Source: a virus. Taken from it: a stretch of 64,000 nt of DNA. The stretch is from the IMG/VR virus record IMGVR_UViG_3300024518_000034, positions 1 to 64,000 of that record, one strand, 5' to 3'. Of this stretch, positions 12-31,281 are shown in pieces (the first letter of the stretch is position 1; every line of letters begins with the position of its first letter). Both the position numbers and the translations under genes were made by a program. The notes under the pieces were generated by a model, which was not told the DNA's origin, did not search any database, and was given only the letters and a program-made list of their open reading frames with translations.

Positions 12-40
12 TAGCAAAAGACAAGAGTTGTTGGTACTCT
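12..40 (+). promoter_or_regulatory. Promoter P1, TAGCAA-N17-TACTCT type
   Basis: Reads TAGCAA (12-17), a 17-base spacer ending TTGG, then TACTCT (35-40). It is the first of eight sites in the first 4.7 kb built to the same plan, and the constant spacing is what makes it credible. The -35 does not resemble TTGACA. It would transcribe the structured stretch after it and the small gene at 373. The polymerase or sigma that reads it is unknown. Confidence 0.65.
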
Positions 41-46
41 AAATAG

Positions 47-372
47 AACAAGCAGCGACACGGTGTTCAGGCATCGCATTCTCATAGCCTAAATCGGGTT
101 CATTGATGTGGGGATTGAAGAGGACGACTACGCCTCTTGGTGGGAAGCCACGCTGCAATAGGGGAGGTAGTTTAAACTACAAAATCTCGGTCACGAAGAT
201 GCAGGTGAAAACCCTGTCCTCTCCACCACCAAGATTACCGAGAGTATATAATCGGTCACTGCGTCTTGTAGCGCATCACAACGGAATCATTCTGCAAGCG
301 TTCGCATCGGGGCGCAGTCCAGCGGCTGGTACGATGCTAGTCCAGCAATCTTAAATAAGAAAGGCAAATGAA
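47..372 (+). ncRNA. Structured non-coding stretch behind P1
   Basis: No convincing coding frame is seen over about 325 bases. The stretch can fold strongly: AGAGGAC (119-125) pairs with GTCCTCT (216-222), TCTCGGT (185-191) pairs with ACCGAGA (237-243), and GTAGTTTAAACTAC (167-180) is a perfect palindrome. The first two helices interleave, so they are alternatives or a pseudoknot. The end of the stretch (about 340-352) carries CCAGCAATCTT, much like the arm at 6462-6474. It may be a small RNA or a long leader for the gene at 373. No known RNA family was recognised. Confidence 0.35.
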
Positions 373-528
373 ATGAAGATTCTGATCGGGTTGGTGCTGG
401 TGTTTACTCCCCTTAGCATAGTTGAATGTGAGGTTCTCTTTTGTCGGGAGCCTGCTAGGGTCATCGTTGAACATGGTGACCATACTCATGAATTGTGCTG
501 GAAGCACTTTCGAGAAAAAATAAGATAG
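373..528 (+). CDS. Small Cys/His-rich protein with hydrophobic N-terminus
   Basis: Encodes 51 residues starting at ATG 373, with AAAGG about ten bases upstream. Residues 3-18 are hydrophobic, and Cys and His residues follow, ending in a His-x-Leu-Cys-x-x-x-His arrangement that could bind metal. The gene ends just before promoter P2. It is too short for a family call; it could be a membrane-anchored peptide or a small zinc-binding protein. Confidence 0.5.
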   Translation: MKILIGLVLVFTPLSIVECEVLFCREPARVIVEHGDHTHELCWKHFREKIR

Positions 529-531
529 TAG

Positions 532-560
532 TAGCAAGAACAATACTTCACTGGTATTCT
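532..560 (+). promoter_or_regulatory. Promoter P2, TAGCAA-N17-TATTCT type
   Basis: TAGCAA at 532-537, TATTCT at 555-560, 17 bases between, with TGG directly before the -10 (extended -10). Downstream AAGTGAAGTAAG is shared with P3 and close to P4 and P8, so conservation reaches into the initial transcribed region. It lies just behind the stop of the gene at 373. Confidence 0.7.
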
Positions 561-571
561 AAGTGAAGTAA

Positions 572-790
572 GATGTCCTGGCTCGGTGCAGGATGTTGGA
601 TAGGCCATTGAAGAAGTCACGGGTCAAGCCCCTAAGCCGGGAGAGTCGTGAGCGTGAAACTATAACGTTAATGCTAGCCTAAGCGTTAGGAACCAATGCC
701 AACATTCAAAACGGTTCAATTCCGTTTGGGGACTGCTGAGAAGTCAAGGTGCGAAAACTTACGAAGCTCGCATTCTTTCCAGGGGTTTTA
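572..790 (+). ncRNA. Structured non-coding RNA with a tRNA-type T arm
   Basis: About 220 bases between P2 and a terminator contain no plausible gene. CCTAA (678-682) and TTAGG (686-690) form a hairpin. AAACGG-TTCAATT-CCGTTT (709-727) has the loop of a tRNA T arm, but I could not find a matching acceptor stem or anticodon arm. GACTGCTGA shortly downstream is also present in the tRNA-like element at 2958. It may be a small RNA or a decayed tRNA. Confidence 0.4.
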
Positions 791-825
791 GGGATGTACC
801 ATCGGCGTCAAACATCCCGTTCTTT
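791..825 (+). terminator. Probable rho-independent terminator
   Basis: GGGATGT (791-797) pairs with ACATCCC (812-818) around a 14-base loop and is followed by GTTCTTT. It would end the P2 non-coding transcript, or act as an attenuator before the gene at 846. The U tract is short, so read-through is likely. Confidence 0.5.
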
Positions 826-845
826 AACAAGTAGGAGAGAGAAGA

Positions 846-1046
846 ATGTCTCATACGTACATCGTTGCTATCAGAGAGGTTCACATAAATCTTGTAGAAG
901 TAACGTCAGAGGGTCCATTGAGTGAGGAAGACGCTAAAGAGATAGCAGCGCAGCATAGCTGTTCGGATTCTCTCGATATCGAGTTTAGTCACACTATGGA
1001 TAACGATACTTGGACGGTAGAAGAAATAAACAAACAGGAGAAGTAA
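846..1046 (+). CDS. Small acidic protein, unknown
   Basis: Encodes 66 residues starting at ATG 846 behind AGGAGAGAGAAG. It is acidic and soluble, with no recognised motif or membrane segment. It is the first of three tightly spaced small genes (846, 1049, 1203), which look like one transcript fed from P2 through a leaky terminator. Function unknown. Confidence 0.7.
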   Translation: MSHTYIVAIREVHINLVEVTSEGPLSEEDAKEIAAQHSCSDSLDIEFSHTMDNDTWTVEEINKQEK

Positions 1047-1048
1047 TC

Positions 1049-1210
1049 ATGGCACGAGGTAAGAACCGTAATCAGCCGAAGATCAAGGTGAAGTGCAAGA
1101 AGTGTCAGGACGTGGGTGTTCGCTCTGTTCTCGTGATTCGCTCTGGTCCGAAAGCAACTCGTGGTGGTGCGTATCGCTCGGTGGTCAAGGTGGACTGCTG
1201 CAATGTTTAG
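1049..1210 (+). CDS. Small basic protein with CxxC pair
   Basis: Encodes 53 residues from ATG 1049, preceded by AGGAG. It is very basic at the N-terminus, with a CKKC motif near residue 17 and a CC pair near the C-terminus, so it may be a small zinc ribbon able to bind nucleic acid. It starts two bases after the previous stop and overlaps the next gene by eight bases, suggesting translational coupling. Function unknown. Confidence 0.6.
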   Translation: MARGKNRNQPKIKVKCKKCQDVGVRSVLVIRSGPKATRGGAYRSVVKVDCCNV

Positions 1211-1367
1211 TACAATTGAGGCAGATCGTGCAGCTTGTGCAGCAAACAAAACAAAAGCAGTCCGCGATGGAAAATTCGCTGAAGCGAGGGAGTGGAGTAA
1301 AGCGGAACAACATTTGAGAGAGGCAAGCGCTGCAATTCGCAGGATCAAGTGGCTAATGAAAAAGTAG
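1203..1367 (+). CDS. Small helical protein, unknown
   Basis: Encodes 54 residues from ATG 1203, overlapping the preceding gene. The composition (Ala, Lys, Glu, Arg) predicts one or two charged helices. Its stop is immediately followed by promoter P3, so it closes the first cassette. No family recognised. Confidence 0.55.
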   Translation: MFSTIEADRAACAANKTKAVRDGKFAEAREWSKAEQHLREASAAIRRIKWLMKK

Positions 1368-1396
1368 TAGCAAGATCAGTAGTTTGTTGGTATTCT
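1368..1396 (+). promoter_or_regulatory. Promoter P3, TAGCAA-N17-TATTCT type
   Basis: TAGCAA 1368-1373, spacer of 17 ending GTTGG, TATTCT 1391-1396. The -35 element overlaps the end of the gene before it (stop within GTAGTAG). It drives the genes at 1432 and 1664. Confidence 0.72.
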
Positions 1397-1431
1397 AAGT
1401 GAAGTAAGGAAAACCACAAAAGGAGGGACAA

Positions 1432-1653
1432 ATGAAAGTGAAGATGAAAAACCCAAGTAGCTGCATGGCTCGGACATCTAAGATCAAGGCCATTGCAAAA
1501 CAATGCAAGGCGCTGGGATTTATAGTCAAGGCAGACTATAAAAGTGCTGGCACCGTCAAGATCAAGGATGGTGAGGAAGAGATGTACATGGCTATTCAAA
1601 AGGGTAAGAATGGCCCTTGGATCGTTCGCTACAGTCAAGATTATTTTGCATGA
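1432..1653 (+). CDS. Small basic protein, unknown (73 aa)
   Basis: ATG 1432 follows AAAGGAGGGACAA, one of the strongest ribosome sites here. The 73-residue product is Lys-rich, with a possible compact alpha/beta pattern and an aromatic C-terminus. No motif recognised. First gene of the P3 cassette. Confidence 0.7.
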   Translation: MKVKMKNPSSCMARTSKIKAIAKQCKALGFIVKADYKSAGTVKIKDGEEEMYMAIQKGKNGPWIVRYSQDYFA

Positions 1654-1663
1654 GGTAAGACCA

Positions 1664-1834
1664 ATGGAGACTGAGAGGATTTATATCTGGGGCGTTTACA
1701 AGGCGATAGGGCACCTTGTCACCGACAAGGTTGGGCAGTCTCCTACTGAGTTGGGCGCAAGACTGGTAGCTATCGAGTGTCGCAAGACTGGGTATCTTGG
1801 TAATCTCAAGAAGATTCGCCGCAGAATAAAATAA
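1664..1834 (+). CDS. Small protein, unknown (56 aa)
   Basis: Encodes 56 residues from ATG 1664, 10 bases after the previous stop, with GAGGTAAG upstream as a likely ribosome site. A basic C-terminal tail of alternating Lys and Arg follows a mixed domain. P4 begins directly behind it. The start is the first ATG after the preceding gene; the open frame itself extends further upstream inside that gene. Confidence 0.6.
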   Translation: METERIYIWGVYKAIGHLVTDKVGQSPTELGARLVAIECRKTGYLGNLKKIRRRIK

Positions 1835-1843
1835 ATAAAGTAG

Positions 1844-1872
1844 TAGCAAGAAGTAAGTTAGTTCGGTATTCT
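1844..1872 (+). promoter_or_regulatory. Promoter P4, TAGCAA-N17-TATTCT type
   Basis: TAGCAA 1844-1849 and TATTCT 1867-1872 with 17 bases between; the extended -10 here is CGG rather than TGG. It precedes the cassette 1907-2734. Confidence 0.7.
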
Positions 1873-1906
1873 AAGTGTAAGTAAGAGAAACCGAAAGGAG
1901 ATCAAG

Positions 1907-2134
1907 ATGCAAGTCGAGAAGATCAGAGCGGCATTTGAACAAGCGTTTGGTGAGGCTGAAGTAGTGAGAACTGTTCCGGTGATTAGCATTGCGACACCTA
2001 ATGATGAGTTTACTGTCGAGATCGTCAATGGCAGACTGATCTGGACCGATTTCAGTCACACAACTGACCTGGGGCCTGAAGACGGGTCAGAAATTATCAA
2101 GAAATTGGTAACAAAGTGGGTAACTGCCAGGTAA
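1907..2134 (+). CDS. Small acidic protein, unknown (75 aa)
   Basis: ATG 1907 lies behind AAAGGAGATCAAG. The 75 residues alternate a helix, beta-like stretches and a C-terminal helix. No metal or catalytic motif is seen. First gene of the P4 cassette. Function unknown. Confidence 0.7.
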   Translation: MQVEKIRAAFEQAFGEAEVVRTVPVISIATPNDEFTVEIVNGRLIWTDFSHTTDLGPEDGSEIIKKLVTKWVTAR

Positions 2135-2171
2135 TAGAGCGATCTGGGAAAACTACTAGGAGAATAAAATA

Positions 2172-2435
2172 ATGCGTAAGGCAGACGTGGAAGTGGGTAA
2201 GGTGTACAGTGCCAAGGTGAGCGGCAAACTTGTGATTGTGAGGCTAGATCGTGAGTCACGATATGGCGGTTGGGAAGGCACAAATCTATACACTGGCCGA
2301 AGTGTAAGGCTTAGGACTGCTGGACGATTGCGCCTGGAAGTACCGGAGTCTGTTGTTCAGAGAATGATTGACAGAGATAAGGTTCACAGAAAAAATGTCA
2401 AAAAGTGGCAAGAAGAGGAGTGGTCGATTTCTTAG
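2172..2435 (+). CDS. Small basic protein, possible SH3-like barrel
   Basis: Encodes 87 residues from ATG 2172 with AGGAGAA upstream. The first 55 residues are a series of short beta-like segments that resemble a small barrel, followed by a charged helix. This reading is by eye. Second gene of the P4 cassette. Confidence 0.65.
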   Translation: MRKADVEVGKVYSAKVSGKLVIVRLDRESRYGGWEGTNLYTGRSVRLRTAGRLRLEVPESVVQRMIDRDKVHRKNVKKWQEEEWSIS

Positions 2436-2452
2436 AAAAGGAGAAAAACCAA

Positions 2453-2734
2453 ATGGCATGGCAAGTGATTTTGAATGGCGCACCAATTATTGATTGTGAG
2501 TCTGAAACTGAAATGGCAGACAAATTGCTCGCACTGTTCAATTTGGGGGTTTTTGGAACATTCGACACCAGAGAAGTGAAGTGTAAAGATTGTGCTGACC
2601 ACCTGCTGGGTTGTCCTGTTTGCACTGACCAACCTGCGCCTGCCACCAAGCCGGTGCGCTGGATCGTCCCGTCGCTGGTCCGCAAGACCGGCGCTGGCAA
2701 GTGGGTCGCGGAGCAAGGGGCGCGGGACGACTGA
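2453..2734 (+). CDS. Small protein with four-Cys cluster
   Basis: Encodes 93 residues from ATG 2453 behind AAAAGGAG. The middle contains C-K-D-C followed about nine residues later by C-P-V-C, a likely zinc site. The C-terminal third is more GC-rich than its start, in line with the base drift toward the right of this block. It closes the P4 cassette. Confidence 0.65.
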   Translation: MAWQVILNGAPIIDCESETEMADKLLALFNLGVFGTFDTREVKCKDCADHLLGCPVCTDQPAPATKPVRWIVPSLVRKTGAGKWVAEQGARDD

Positions 2735-2758
2735 CCAAAAAGAAAATAAATAAAGTAG

Positions 2759-2787
2759 TAGCAAGAGTAGCAGTACGTTGGCAATCT
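2759..2787 (+). promoter_or_regulatory. Promoter P5, TAGCAA-N17-CAATCT variant
   Basis: TAGCAA 2759-2764, then 17 bases ending GTTGG, then CAATCT (2782-2787), the most divergent -10 of the set. What follows is a non-coding stretch ending in a tRNA-like element, so this variant may serve an RNA cassette. Confidence 0.6.
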
Positions 2788-2794
2788 AAATGTA

Positions 2795-2957
2795 GTAAGA
2801 AACAGTAAGATAAAGGGAGCCAACAATACTCCAGCGCAAAATCAGGCCGCGCTACACAAGAAAAGAGCAAACCGAGTGCTGAGAATCTAGGGGCGGTACG
2901 CAAGGGAAACGGTGGGTCGTGCGTGCAAAAAGCTCCGTTAAATTAAAAATCACCATG
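2795..2957 (+). ncRNA. Non-coding leader of the P5 transcript
   Basis: About 160 bases without a plausible reading frame between P5 and the tRNA-like element. The stretch has GC-rich, self-complementary pieces but no helix I could extend confidently. It may be the precursor 5' part of the tRNA-like RNA or a separate small RNA. Confidence 0.3.
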
Positions 2958-3032
2958 GATTCCGTCGCAGACTGCTGAAGGGTGCTAGGCTTGATAAATC
3001 CTAGTACCAGGGTTCAATTCCCTGCGGAATCT
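2958..3032 (+). tRNA. tRNA-like element with an abnormal anticodon loop
   Basis: A perfect 7-base acceptor stem joins GATTCCG (2958-2964) to CGGAATC (3025-3031). A perfect 5-base T stem CAGGG/CCCTG encloses TTCAATT (3013-3019), at exactly tRNA spacing from the acceptor. The anticodon stem CTAGG (2985-2989)/CCTAG (3000-3004) encloses ten bases rather than seven, and the D arm does not form a normal helix. The isotype cannot be assigned. It could be a degenerate tRNA, a tRNA with an altered decoding loop, or a tRNA-like RNA. CCA is not encoded. Confidence 0.5.
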
Positions 3033-3063
3033 AAGATAAGTAAACAAAAACAGGAGAAAGAAA

Positions 3064-3237
3064 ATGAAGAAAGGTAAGACCATGGAAAAGCTCTTAGGTG
3101 AAATTCTAACTGAGATAGATAATTTGTCTCTTTCGGAGGGTAGTGACGGTTGTGACTTTCCTTGGACCGTAGTGGATGTTCGCTCTGTGAACCGATTGAA
3201 AGAGCTTGCAAACGAAATCGCAAAAGAAACAAAATAA
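3064..3237 (+). CDS. Small protein, unknown (57 aa)
   Basis: ATG 3064 is preceded by AGGAGAAAGAAA and gives 57 residues with a basic N-terminus, an acidic middle and a helical C-terminus. It sits between the tRNA-like element and P6, so it belongs to the P5 transcript. No family recognised. Confidence 0.6.
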   Translation: MKKGKTMEKLLGEILTEIDNLSLSEGSDGCDFPWTVVDVRSVNRLKELANEIAKETK

Positions 3238-3241
3238 GTAG

Positions 3242-3270
3242 TAGCAAAAATAAAGTCACGTTGGTACACT
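3242..3270 (+). promoter_or_regulatory. Promoter P6, TAGCAA-N17-TACACT type
   Basis: TAGCAA 3242-3247 and TACACT 3265-3270, 17 apart, with GTTGG before the -10. It drives the single gene at 3306. Confidence 0.68.
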
Positions 3271-3305
3271 GAGTGGTAATAAACAAAACAAATCAGGAGA
3301 GAGCT

Positions 3306-3548
3306 ATGTCAGTGAATAAAAAGAACTTCCAGCGTCGTCATTATGTTGCAGTAGCTGAAGCGATCAACACGCTCTGGAGTGAGGCACGCGATGGGGAAAT
3401 GATGGTAGCGACTAAGAACGAAGAGTCGTACCGTGATGCGTTGACTGATACCATCAGCGAATTGTCTAAAACTTTCTTCTATGACAATCCCAACTTCGAC
3501 CAGACTCGATTCACTGAGGCGTGTCGAAAAAGAAATAAAAAAGAGTAG
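3306..3548 (+). CDS. Small helical protein, unknown (80 aa)
   Basis: ATG 3306 follows AGGAGAGAGCT; an upstream in-frame codon at 3273 falls inside the expected leader and is disfavoured. The 80 residues form charged helices ending in a Lys-rich tail. It is alone between two promoters, P6 and P7. Function unknown. Confidence 0.7.
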   Translation: MSVNKKNFQRRHYVAVAEAINTLWSEARDGEMMVATKNEESYRDALTDTISELSKTFFYDNPNFDQTRFTEACRKRNKKE

Positions 3549-3577
3549 TAGCAAACAAGTAGCGAGCTTGGTATTCT
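3549..3577 (+). promoter_or_regulatory. Promoter P7, TAGCAA-N17-TATTCT type
   Basis: TAGCAA 3549-3554 and TATTCT 3572-3577, spacer 17 ending CTTGG. It overlaps the end of the preceding gene and drives the ATPase half of the split helicase at 3616. Confidence 0.7.
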
Positions 3578-3615
3578 GTTTAGAAGGATAACAACGGAAA
3601 ACAGGAGAAGCGGAA

Positions 3616-4602
3616 ATGGCACATAAGATTAAGCTGGTTAAGGACAAGATTGAAGTCCTGACCGATGGCTGGCCTGGTAAGCCAGCACTCGCTAAGATCA
3701 AGGCATTGCCCGGTCGCAAGTGGGACGCGGATCGCAAGATCTGGTGGCTCCCCGCTTCGCCGGATGGCGTTGCCGCTGCCGTAGCGCTCGCCGCTGAACT
3801 GTGTTATGTGGTTGGCGACGATCTGCTCAAGCAGGCTTCCGATCAAGCTCGAAAAGAAGATGGTGTGTTTGCGGTACAGGACGCATTCATTGATGACGAC
3901 GTGGCAGCATGGGCATTTCAGCGTCAAGGCAGTAAGGCACTGGCGCGTAACGACCGTTACATTCTGGGCGATGACATGGGTCTGGGAAAGACTCGTCAGT
4001 ATCAGATGGCTCTGCCGAAGGCTAAGAAATGTGGACTGCTGGTGATCTGCCCAGCTTCGATCAAGGGTGTTCACGAGAAAGAGCTTCGCAAGTGGCGTAA
4101 GGATTTTAAGAAAATCACGATTATCTCAGGACGTGGGAACTTCAGGTATCCCAAGACCGGTGAGTGTGTCATCATCAATTTCGACATTCTCCCCAAGGTG
4201 GTTGAACTGGAGACTATGGACGTTCCGGCTGATCTCATCGTGGTGGTTGATGAAGCGCATAACTGCAAGAATTACAAGGCGCTACGCACCAAGCGAGTTA
4301 CTAAGATTATCGAACGTGCCTGGCTTGCATGGCTGTTGACTGGTACAGCGCTACAGAATCGACCCGGAGAACTCTGGACTATCCTTCAGGTTGGCGGTCT
4401 GATTGAAAAGGCTGGGCTGACGTTCGGACGCTTTTGCGCTCTGTTCGGTGCTAAGAAGGGTCAGTATGGAATGGTTTGGGGTGCGCCTCGACCAGAGATT
4501 GCGGAAATCCTCAAGCGAGTGATGCTTCGACGTGAGAAGGGCGAAGTGCTACAGGATCTGCCGGAAAAGGTGTACAGCAGTGTGCCGGTGGAAATCTTTT
4601 AA
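3616..4602 (+). CDS. SNF2-type helicase, N-terminal ATPase half (split gene)
   Basis: Encodes 328 residues carrying only the first RecA-like lobe of an SNF2/SMARCAL1-like DNA translocase. Residues 18-46 (GRKWD and a following Trp pair) resemble a HARP-like DNA-binding segment. Motif I is GDDMGLGKT (118-126), motif II DEAH (212-215), motif III LTGTALQNRP (241-250). Motifs V and VI are absent: the frame stops after VPVEIF, where intact relatives continue, and the rest is encoded at 4967. Start ATG 3616 follows AGGAGAAGCGGAA. Codon use is GC-richer than downstream phage genes. The two halves presumably associate into one enzyme that remodels DNA forks or displaces proteins; this is inference. 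Confidence 0.88.
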   Translation: MAHKIKLVKDKIEVLTDGWPGKPALAKIKALPGRKWDADRKIWWLPASPDGVAAAVALAAELCYVVGDDLLKQASDQARKEDGVFAVQDAFIDDDVAAWAFQRQGSKALARNDRYILGDDMGLGKTRQYQMALPKAKKCGLLVICPASIKGVHEKELRKWRKDFKKITIISGRGNFRYPKTGECVIINFDILPKVVELETMDVPADLIVVVDEAHNCKNYKALRTKRVTKIIERAWLAWLLTGTALQNRPGELWTILQVGGLIEKAGLTFGRFCALFGAKKGQYGMVWGAPRPEIAEILKRVMLRREKGEVLQDLPEKVYSSVPVEIF

Positions 4603-4610
4603 GAAAGTAG

Positions 4611-4639
4611 TAGCAGGATCAGTAGCATGTTGGTATTCT
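4611..4639 (+). promoter_or_regulatory. Promoter P8, TAGCAG-N17-TATTCT, inside the split helicase
   Basis: TAGCAG 4611-4616, 17 bases ending GTTGG, TATTCT 4634-4639. It begins eight bases after the stop of the ATPase half, and so separately expresses the small gene at 4690 and the second helicase half. Confidence 0.68.
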
Positions 4640-4689
4640 AAGTGTAGTAAGGAACAACGGAACGCAGGCAACGAAAAAAGGAGCGAGAC

Positions 4690-4953
4690 ATGGCACGACG
4701 CAAGACCACGAGCCCCGGCAAGATCCGCAGCACGACCCGCGAAGCGAACGAGTTGGCTGACATGCTGACGCGCCTTCTGGTTCCGGTTCTGGGCGAGGAC
4801 ATTGCCCGCAAGCTGGCGTTCAAGACGCTGATCAGCAAGAACCCGGCTCGTCGCCTGGACGGTGCCAAGGAGGTTCAGAAGTACCTGGGCCTCGCTGGCG
4901 CGAACAAGCTCCAGGCCCTGTGCGCCAAGACAAACTTCAAGAACGCCCGTTAA
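4690..4953 (+). CDS. Small basic protein inserted between helicase halves
   Basis: Encodes 87 residues from ATG 4690 behind AAAAAAGGAGCGAGAC. It has a very basic N-terminal 18 residues followed by Ala/Leu-rich helices, compatible with DNA binding or a protein-protein adaptor. It is among the most GC-rich genes in the window. It lies between the ATPase half and the helicase-C half, 13 bases before the latter, so it may have arrived with P8 or may bridge the two polypeptides. No family recognised. Confidence 0.72.
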   Translation: MARRKTTSPGKIRSTTREANELADMLTRLLVPVLGEDIARKLAFKTLISKNPARRLDGAKEVQKYLGLAGANKLQALCAKTNFKNAR

Positions 4954-4966
4954 GGAGATCAATCAA

Positions 4967-6073
4967 ATGACCAACGTCAAGACGCTACTCGACAGGGTGC
5001 AGCAAGATTGGGATGAGAACTACCCAGCCGACAAGCTGCCTCCCTTCGAGGAGCTTTCGGCTGCTCGCGCTGCTCTTGCGACTGCTAAGATCCCTGCCGC
5101 ACTGGAGTGGATCAAGCAGTATCAAGAGAACAGCGACAAGCCACTGATCGTGTTCAGCGCTCACCGTGCGCCGGTCGAAACGATCAGCGACCTTGAGGGG
5201 TTCGATTCGATTCTCGGGGGCACGCCTGTCGAGCGCAGGACACAGCTTGTCGAGGATTTCCAGGCTGGCAAACTCAAGGGTCTTGCCATCACGATCAAGG
5301 CCGGCGGTGAGGGTCTGACCTTGACCGCTGCGGATCACGCGCTATTTGTTGATCTGGAATGGAACCCGGCCAAGAATCGTCAGGCGGAAGATCGTATCCA
5401 CCGCATCGGCCAGCGTGATTCGGCTAGCATCGTAGTGCTTGAAGCAAACCATGAGATTGATCGCAGGCTCTGCGAGCTTCTCCAACACAAGCAGGATCTG
5501 TTCGACAAGGTGATCGGCGCAGCAAGCGTGGAAGAAAAGCTCACGCAGCAGGAAATCGTGGATAAGGTCAAGAATCAGGAAGTGCCGGAAGATGAGCCCA
5601 AGAAGAAAGAGCCGTTTATCAGGTATGCCAAACTGATTCAGCACATGGTTGACGCTAGGGCCAAGGGCTTGAAGTGGCCGAAAATCACGCTGCGTGCGAA
5701 CGGTCAGGTTGTCCAGCTTTCCCTCACGGGAGACAAGGCGAAACGACCAGGCACGATCAACCTCTCAAACGGTGAGAAGTTCGGCAGTCCCAAGAACAAG
5801 TACTACGGGGCGATTGGAAAAGACGGGAAATGGTTTCCAGCGAGAAACCTTGACGCCAAGACACGCTCCGCAGTCGTGGCTCTGCTCGACGCTTTCCAGC
5901 GTGACCCAAGCGAGATCGCTCTCAAACACTCGCACGATACTGGGTACTGTTGCTTCTGCGGCATCCTCATCGGCGCGACGGGAAAGAAGGAAAGTGTGCT
6001 TAGGGGATACGGTCCCAAGTGCGCCCAGAATTGGGGTCTGCCGTTCGACTTCGCCAAGTACGCAAAAGAGTAA
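4967..6073 (+). CDS. SNF2-type helicase, C-terminal half with zinc-binding tail
   Basis: Encodes 368 residues from ATG 4967 (TAAGGAGATCAATCAA upstream; the longer frame from 4862 runs through the previous gene and is rejected). It holds the second helicase lobe: FSAHRAPV near 63-70, motif V GGEGLTLT (113-120), motif VI QAEDRIHRIGQ (139-149). The C-terminal 45 residues contain CCFCG and a GYGPKCA segment like the DUF6011 zinc-binding tail of phage SNF2 proteins. It lacks Walker motifs and cannot hydrolyse ATP alone, so it must pair with the product at 3616. A strong terminator follows. Confidence 0.87.
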   Translation: MTNVKTLLDRVQQDWDENYPADKLPPFEELSAARAALATAKIPAALEWIKQYQENSDKPLIVFSAHRAPVETISDLEGFDSILGGTPVERRTQLVEDFQAGKLKGLAITIKAGGEGLTLTAADHALFVDLEWNPAKNRQAEDRIHRIGQRDSASIVVLEANHEIDRRLCELLQHKQDLFDKVIGAASVEEKLTQQEIVDKVKNQEVPEDEPKKKEPFIRYAKLIQHMVDARAKGLKWPKITLRANGQVVQLSLTGDKAKRPGTINLSNGEKFGSPKNKYYGAIGKDGKWFPARNLDAKTRSAVVALLDAFQRDPSEIALKHSHDTGYCCFCGILIGATGKKESVLRGYGPKCAQNWGLPFDFAKYAKE

Positions 6074-6089
6074 AGATGTTCATTTCTCC

Positions 6090-6142
6090 ACCGTCTAACG
6101 ATTCAAGCGATTAAGGATCGTTAGACGGTTCTCCTTTTCTTG
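6090..6142 (+). terminator. Strong rho-independent terminator
   Basis: A 13-base perfect inverted repeat, ACCGTCTAACGAT (6090-6102) and ATCGTTAGACGGT (6117-6129), is followed by TCTCCTTTTCTTG. It sits 16 bases after the helicase-C stop and ends the P8 transcript. Confidence 0.85.
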
Positions 6143-7005: not shown

Positions 7006-7572
7006 ATGACCAAAACGCAGCAGGCTTTCATCGTGCAGTACCTGGACCTGGCGATTCGCATCGCCTCGAAAATCCTGGGGGAGTGGATCGACCCGGATAG
7101 CGATAAGGGAGCCAGCGCGTATTTCGGGCTCGTTGAAGCGGCCCAAAAGTTCGACGCCGACAAGGGCACGCCGGAAAGCTGCGTTTGGCTTTACGTGAGA
7201 AAGCGTGTTCTGCGCGATCTGCAATCATTCACTCGCACCAGTAAGTCGAGAGCGTGCAACGCTTGCAAGGGCAAGATCAAGGTTGCAACGTGCGATGCTT
7301 GCGGTGGAACGGGTCGCCAGGTTGTAACGCTCGGGATCGCTGGACAGGTTGGGAAGTGGGATGCGAATAACGAGGACGCGGAACAGGTTGGCACGCTTCT
7401 TGACACGCTCGACTCACGAGCCCGCGACATCCTCACCCAGCGCTACCTCGGGAAGCGCACACAACAGCAGGTTGCCGACAAGCTCGGCATCAGTCGCCAG
7501 TACGTTACGAAGATCGAGAGGCAGGCTCTGGCATCGCTGAGAATCGCTGCTAAGGGGTCGCCAGTCCAATAA
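7006..7572 (+). CDS. Sigma-factor-like protein with inserted zinc motif
   Basis: Encodes 188 residues. Residues 1-75 resemble sigma70 region 2: an amphipathic first helix, then GLVEAAQKFDADKGTPES and a WLYVRKRVLRDLQ segment. Residues 84-102 insert CNAC and CDACGGTG, a DnaJ-type four-Cys zinc motif, where region 3 would stand. Residues 134-178 match region 4: LDSRARDIL, then a helix-turn-helix (QQQVADKLGISRQYVTKIE). It probably steers RNA polymerase to phage promoters; the TAGCAA-N17-TATTCT sites upstream are the obvious candidates, but that link is inference. Start ATG 7006 has GGAGCG before it. It is the last gene of the GC-rich block. Confidence 0.8.
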   Translation: MTKTQQAFIVQYLDLAIRIASKILGEWIDPDSDKGASAYFGLVEAAQKFDADKGTPESCVWLYVRKRVLRDLQSFTRTSKSRACNACKGKIKVATCDACGGTGRQVVTLGIAGQVGKWDANNEDAEQVGTLLDTLDSRARDILTQRYLGKRTQQQVADKLGISRQYVTKIERQALASLRIAAKGSPVQ

Positions 7573-9035: not shown

Positions 9036-9123
9036 TCTCCCCCTCCTATTAATTAATAATAAATAAAAAGCCATATAATTGTATGTCAATTATATAGCTA
9101 TTAACTTTTCCACTTGTACACCT

Positions 9124-28870: not shown

Positions 28871-28899
28871 TTGACAAATCGTATAAGACATACTAGAAT
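28871..28899 (+). promoter_or_regulatory. Sigma70-type promoter
   Basis: TTGACA (28871-28876), 17 bases, TAGAAT (28894-28899). The -35 is perfect and the -10 has one mismatch to TATAAT. It feeds the long run of small genes from 28951 or 28990. Confidence 0.85.
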
Positions 28900-31253: not shown

Positions 31254-31281
31254 TTGACAAGGGCTGTACTCGTGGTATACT
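31254..31281 (+). promoter_or_regulatory. Sigma70-type promoter with extended -10
   Basis: TTGACA (31254-31259), 16 bases ending GTGG, TATACT (31276-31281). The -35 sits inside CCCTTGACAAGGG, a small palindrome that could hide it or serve as an operator. Drives the gene at 31321 onward. Confidence 0.85.

Follow-up and report, generated by a model that had tools for sequence, protein, structure and literature searches.

Promoter-like sites and gene cassettes at the start of the record

The stretch of DNA analysed here, referred to as the window, comprises bases 1-64000 of the 192,308-base virus record IMGVR_UViG_3300024518_000034, a 192-kb phage, and its first kilobases carry small gene cassettes with a recurring promoter-like element between them. 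Bases 1-107 are repeated exactly near the end of the record; the two copies then differ by one substitution and, after about 170 bases, by an insertion or deletion (indel) of about 27 bases. As the contig ends thus overlap, the map was handled as circular, with a unit of 192,011 bases.

The original prediction placed eight promoters with a non-standard -35 in this part of the window. All eight sites (12, 532, 1368, 1844, 2759, 3242, 3549 and 4611, all on the + strand) indeed present TAGCA(A/G), a gap of exactly 17 nucleotides (nt) and a -10-like hexamer, which reads TATTCT at five of them; the -35 hexamer is TAGCAA except at 4611. Site 12 (3-52; TACTCT; 34.7 bits) precedes a non-coding structured stretch and, owing to the overlapping ends, reappears at 192023 of the record, while after site 532 (523-572; TATTCT; 39.7 bits) come some 280 nt in which no clear gene is seen. 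Sites 1368 (1359-1408; TATTCT; 42.8 bits) and 1844 (1835-1884; TATTCT; 39.2 bits) have predicted leaders of 29 and 28 nt to the ATG codons of two small cassette open reading frames (ORFs) of 73 and 75 amino acids (+ strand, 1432-1653 and 1907-2134), and at the first of them the upstream TAG stop lies inside the -35 block. Site 2759 (2750-2799; 33.6 bits) has the weakest -10 of the eight, CAATCT, and precedes a non-coding stretch with a transfer RNA (tRNA)-like gene at 2958-3032 (+ strand), which scores 29.7 bits against RF00005, just over the gathering score, and is not called by ARAGORN. The predicted leader of site 3242 (3233-3282; TACACT; 34.9 bits) runs 29 nt to the ATG of an 80-amino-acid ORF (+ strand, 3306-3548), whose TAG stop falls in the -35 block of site 3549 (3540-3589; TATTCT; 33.8 bits). 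These three small ORFs have no family match.

Site 3549 precedes the N-terminal half of an SNF2-type helicase (+ strand, 3616-4602; PF00176 7.7e-20, phrog_62 2.9e-39). Site 4611 (4602-4651; TAGCAG and TATTCT; 40.2 bits) lies between the helicase halves, ahead of an 87-amino-acid ORF without family match (+ strand, 4690-4953), and the C-terminal half follows at 4967-6073 (+ strand; PF00271 6.7e-15, phrog_62 1.3e-34). The two helicase ORFs (3616-6073) match adjacent parts of phrog_62, 691-931 and 980-1150, as if the promoter-plus-ORF cassette between them had landed in an SNF2 helicase gene. Further downstream on the + strand are an inverted repeat with a T-rich tail (6090-6140), a possible terminator of the array in a region where terminator-like matches are no commoner than in shuffles, and a gene for a sigma-70-superfamily factor of 188 amino acids (7006-7572; PF04545 2.2e-14), the candidate reader of the sites.

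The motif search over the full genome that the original prediction had called for enlarged the family, ten more strong sites being found at 177759-191535. The resulting 18 strong sites are all intergenic and confined to an 18.9-kb arc (9.8% of the genome), which starts at 177.8 kb, passes over the contig ends and stops at 4.6 kb. All are on the + strand, which alone says little because about 89% of the called genes are also on that strand. The pattern TAGCAR-N17-TATTCT, with one mismatch allowed, gave 19 forward matches and 1 reverse match in the record, and its reversed control gave 0 and 1. A position weight matrix (PWM) was then built from the 18 strong sites and scored by leaving one out, with five order-3 Markov genomes as the null; the sites scored 13-55 bits (at least 28 for all but one) and nothing in the Markov genomes reached 8 bits. 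With a softer PWM the strong sites scored 28-44 bits and six Markov genomes peaked at 16.9. The softer PWM also found weaker forward sites in the record at 166773, 185468 and 165739 (24-28 bits), and the faintest ones at 185211 (18.8 bits) and 158809 (15.6 bits), which are uncertain because their scores lie near or within the Markov noise. Two sites are on the reverse strand, 185145 (26.5 bits) and 177722 (24.0 bits); they stand back to back with the forward sites 185211 and 177759 and are aimed antisense into the preceding + strand genes. The family precedes about 18 to 23 small gene cassettes.

The 18 aligned strong sites have the consensus AAAAAGTAGTAGCAA-N15-TTGGTATTCTAAGTGnAGTAAG. Each position of GTAGCA is conserved in 18/18 sites, as are G, G, A, C and T of the downstream block, where two T's stand at 17/18. 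GTAGCA-N16-GGTA is present in 17 copies on the + strand of the record, whereas other gaps from 10 to 23 give 0-2 copies each, and the full consensus GTAGCA-N16-GGTATTCTAA has 10 copies in the genome. A de novo count of pentamer dyads, which used no prior knowledge, returned GTAGC-N17-GGTAT among the top motifs of the arc.

Mean pairwise identity between sites is 0.84 in the TAG/-35 block and 0.90 in the GG plus -10, for a chance level of 0.27. The first part of the spacer (0.29) and the DNA upstream of the A-tract (0.26-0.27) are close to that level, the last six bases of the spacer are at 0.39 and the A-tract itself at 0.68. Conserved boxes with spacer and flanks near chance point to factor-binding sites and not to duplicated repeats. 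The sites could still be something other than promoters, namely recombination repeats that help cassettes to move, or RNA processing sites, and their location between cassettes, one of which splits the helicase gene, would suit such a role; nevertheless, homologous repeats would be expected to share spacer and flanks, and a pair of boxes with -10-type conservation is not easily explained as a processing site, so that we regard this explanation as highly improbable. T4-type PeSL are mobile promoter/stem-loop cassettes, and the units described here are like them in that a promoter plus a small ORF sits between genes and seemingly moves as a module. They differ in that the inspected cassettes have no stem-loop between them and the promoter overlaps the preceding stop codon.

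Promoter-like geometry and departure from the primary-sigma class

The 17-nt spacer is kept in all 18 sites. Within the -10, A-11 and T-7 are present in 18/18 and T-12, the first T of TATTCT, in 17/18; upstream of it an extended -10 is formed by G-14 (18/18), a conserved G-13 and T-15 (12/18). The predicted start base, six bases past the -10, is an A in 14/18 sites, and a Shine-Dalgarno sequence and ATG lie 12-71 nt downstream in most protein cassettes. The AAGTG-AGTAAG said to follow many of the sites is borne out as a tendency, the discriminator being 61% and the initial transcribed region 43.5% identical between pairs of sites, compared with 27% by chance. The conserved -12, -11 and -7 bases, the extended -10, the A at the start and the downstream Shine-Dalgarno and ATG are together indicative of promoters of the sigma-70-family type. 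From these features the GTAGCA family sites are very probably promoters.

Their placement between cassettes, often over a stop codon, also agrees with what had been proposed, since the TAG of the -35 block terminates the upstream frame in many cassettes (e.g. at 1368, 3549, 178505, 185468, 186877, 187470, 190215 and 190562). Small phage genes are in this way chained economically, with the stop of one gene inside the promoter of the next. Not every cassette is a protein gene, and several sites precede tRNAs or structured RNAs.

Matches to TTGACA/TATAAT are few, 5-7 of 12 positions in all 18 strong sites, none of which has near-consensus boxes, and a sigma-70 scan picked up 0/8 of the window sites. 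This poor match makes a reader with another preference likely. The family does possess several features of the primary-sigma type, i.e. the 17-nt spacer (in the 16-18 nt class), T-12, A-11, T-7 and the extended -10, and the sites could be early promoters read by the host primary-sigma holoenzyme, with the extended -10 (TGG before TATTCT) and the A-tract offsetting a poor -35 and the uniformity reflecting tuning of strength. The dense arc of small ORFs with one promoter per cassette, like known phage early regions, is what such a reading would predict; the T-15 and G-14 bases, the upstream A-tract and the occurrence in three weaker members of TTGCA, nearer to TTGACA, also fit it. However, all 18 sites converge on GTAGCA and C-8, off the primary-sigma optimum, and the invariance of these bases would be unexpected if the primary sigma were the reader; the same genome has TTGACA promoters, and the sigma-70 scan overlooks the eight sites. 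We therefore consider reading by the host primary sigma unlikely.

TTGACA/TATAAT had also been claimed for the remainder of the window. Here only part of the statement holds, as there is a handful of good canonical sites and most genes are without a recognisable promoter. Canonical sites were located at 28871, at 31254 and near 9078 (- strand), and others at 108-117 kb and 170 kb; those at 31254 and 108932 share TTGACAAGGG and GTGGTATA. An ordinary promoter class thus coexists with the GTAGCA family in this genome. An expectation-maximisation motif search of the intergenic DNA yielded tRNA T-arms and AT-rich noise only, and no further promoter class.

Good support for a second and distinct promoter class comes from the conserved boxes over a near-random spacer, the fixed spacing, the intergenic and mostly co-directional placement, the sigma-70-type geometry and the low number of canonical matches. 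The dedicated specificity factor that had been proposed along with it is a reasonable deduction from 18 sites converging on a sequence that is not that of sigma-70. To judge from the sites themselves, the reader is probably not the ordinary host primary sigma.

The sigma factor at 7006-7572 as candidate reader

The 7006-7572 product passes the superfamily cut-off of TIGR02937 with 58.3 bits over residues 6-179 and is the only PF04545 match in the record, hence its single recognisable sigma. It is a full-length protein of the sigma-70/extracytoplasmic function (ECF) type whose gene lies 2.4 kb beyond the final array site, and is built of region 2, a zinc-ribbon-like linker read from the sequence as CNACKGK...CDACGGTG (CxxCxG...CxxCxGxG), and region 4. 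Its recognition helix reads SRQYVTKIE where the aligned housekeeping sigma has TRERIRQIE. The changed residues, which we take to include DNA-contacting ones, would fit an altered -35. The next-best models of the protein are SigB, SigF and SigG, its region 4 being closest to those of SigB/SigF, and its best match of solved structure is region 4 of SigF.

Promoters of the SigB/SigF group are of the form GTTTAA-N12-14-GGG(A/T)A(A/T) (PMC8346170). Since this -10 is G-rich, the (N)GGTAT of the family, found in 15/18 sites (GGGTA(T/C) in four), is compatible with such a factor. The two share a -35 that begins with G and a G-rich extended -10 with A at the fifth position (PMC8346170), but the family has GTAGCA in place of GTTT (at 15 nt from the -10), a spacing about one base longer and an essentially invariant TCT at the end of the -10, which makes the likeness partial. 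The protein itself scores far under the SigB/SigF cut-offs (TIGR02980, 53.6 bits vs 234), the superfamily model TIGR02937 being the only one whose cut-off it passes, and its likeness to those families is to be taken as a resemblance and not as membership.

On these data we consider, with some hesitation, the 7006 product as the leading candidate for the specificity factor of the GTAGCA family. In the mechanism that we tentatively favour, the sites would be promoters of sigma-70 architecture forming one phage-specific regulon, with the 7006 sigma as the likeliest reader; this proposal, drawn from sequence comparison, stands a little short of an even chance. Host core RNA polymerase joined to a non-housekeeping sigma would, as holoenzyme, bind GTAGCA at -36 to -31 and the extended -10 GGTATTCT at -14 to -7, and transcription would begin, mostly at an A, about six bases past the -10. 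Each promoter would drive the small cassette that follows, be it a short ORF with its own Shine-Dalgarno sequence or a tRNA-like RNA, and the tight packing would often let the -35 block supply the TAG stop of the preceding gene. The phage sigma, made from a different promoter, would then switch the whole arc on together. Put more specifically, a sigma with region 2, a DnaJ-like zinc-ribbon linker and region 4 might define a class of its own, GTAGCA-N18-TATTCT, serving only some 20 tiny-gene and tRNA-like cassettes in which the -35 block is the preceding stop and promoter plus ORF form a plug-in module; this fuller version is possible, and somewhat less likely than the assignment of the reader as such. 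If the 7006 product is the reader, it would add a compact sigma with an unusual zinc-ribbon linker together with its cognate promoter, offering an orthogonal promoter pair and insight into the choice of -35 by short sigmas.

Several observations weigh against this assignment, besides the low SigB/SigF scores and the partial promoter likeness. The softer PWM finds no family motif upstream of the sigma gene, and the possible terminator at 6090-6140 lies between array and gene. Between 4.7 and 158 kb, the part of the genome with the replication and structural genes (terminase, DnaB-like helicase, primase, ribonucleotide reductase), the motif does not occur. The arc, with its densely set small ORFs, has the look of an early region and may just as well be one served by host RNA polymerase; transcription there would precede the synthesis of a phage sigma unless this sigma is packaged, and if the arc is early, the reader must be the host polymerase or something injected. 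The predicted fold of the protein is unusable (mean predicted local distance difference test score, pLDDT, 43.7), and searches of viral contigs by the sigma and the terminase found no relative in which sigma and motif could be compared.

Another non-primary factor could read the sites instead, either an alternative host sigma akin to SigB/SigF or an activator made by the phage, acting on the -35 block with host sigma on the -10, as T4 MotA does. The GGTAT -10 resembles the GGGTAT of the SigB group (PMC8346170), and a protein might bind the long upstream block AAAAAGTAGTAGCAA, which is conserved. For a host sigma, however, the -35 differs from GTTT and the full-consensus motif is never found more than once per bacterial genome in the species set; for an activator, the arc proteins have no MotA- or AsiA-like family among the matches listed (the first 25 of 55 PHROGs). 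Such a factor is, in our view, distinctly unlikely.

A strict consensus in an early-looking region would also suit a phage RNA polymerase, single-subunit or very divergent multi-subunit, that enters with the DNA or is synthesised early. In AR9, confirmation was obtained for 33 of the 34 early promoters that had been predicted solely by motif over-representation (PMC5312081), and the present family resembles them in being a few dozen near-identical promoters before phage genes that were found by over-representation. AR9 differs in that it relies on a virion RNA polymerase of its own and on one AT-rich motif (PMC5312081). Several very large proteins of our phage have no known family; yet PF00562, a cellular-type beta model that matched 14/14 control genomes, has no match here, although very divergent subunits could escape it. 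No plausible polymerase ORF contains DxDGD, and two boxes 17 nt apart with such a -10 pattern resemble a sigma-type promoter. The search for a single-subunit enzyme with PF00940 was uninformative, as its controls were silent. A phage polymerase as reader is thus improbable.

Among phages with sigma factors of their own, SPO1-type gp28 steers host core polymerase to two-box middle promoters with AGGAGA and a T-rich -10. The system proposed here is like it in combining a phage sigma with non-consensus two-box promoters, and unlike it in the sequences of the boxes. In phiEco32 and phage 7-11 there is also a phage sigma distantly related to the primary sigma and a motif over-represented in intergenic DNA, from which the sigma-dependent promoters of 7-11 were predicted (PMC4331800). 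These phages have just one extended -10-like element, TAATGTATA with a TGATGT core, as the motif before their middle and late genes (PMC4331800), whereas the family described here has two boxes with a fixed 17-nt spacer and is confined to the small-cassette arc.

Relatives, RNA genes and neighbours of the arc

Across IMG/VR contigs and bacterial and archaeal genomes (257 billion prokaryote bases), the motif was present only as single matches per contig and never as an array. The best of these outside matches reach 29 bits with the softer PWM, as expected for matches selected on the boxes. The sigma and terminase searches of viral contigs returned no relatives. By the ribonucleotide reductase, a near relative (L029, 89% over this gene) and two more distant ones (54-56%) were found; all three are fragments without family promoters, that of L029 being 9 kb long and not extending over the arc. 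The metallophosphoesterase led to 20 large-phage loci at 37-41% identity, all without the motif, which is also absent from eleven whole records behind the metallophosphoesterase and reductase loci. Annotated phages gave no DNA similarity, the similarity to Bacillus phage sigma factors is local and limited to region 4, and nothing relevant on the motif was found in the literature. What emerges is a clean putative phage regulon of about 20 sites with one candidate factor, in a lineage without a close relative among the annotated phages searched.

Besides the gene at 2958-3032 of the window, two tRNA-like genes were missed by ARAGORN. One follows site 178505 (L014:14552-14627; Rfam 32.3 bits; anticodon by eye GTG; T-loop TGCAAGT) and, like the window gene, exceeds the Rfam tRNA gathering score; the other, L015:4100-4182, has a weak tRNA-Sec-like match only. 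The overlapping contig ends, window 47-215 and L015:8058-8200, place their one substitution and indel of about 27 bases in an RNA-like stretch with a T-arm-like hairpin and ACCA at its end, and since the ends differ, two variants of this RNA-like locus were seemingly assembled. A transfer-messenger RNA (tmRNA) gene is located at G000:166241-166624 (L014:2241-2624; RF00023 86.7 bits), with an unusually long predicted tag, DNNNVISLSDRRKGRKTRAFARLAA, and is flanked by the weak family promoters 165739 and 166773. The latter site is followed by a GroES-like co-chaperonin (L014:3001-3312; Pfam Cpn10 is among the arc proteins, and the ORF was assigned from its sequence). A TROVE/Ro60-type RNA-binding protein (L014:3355-4902; phrog_850, 6e-33) is encoded near the tRNA and tmRNA genes.

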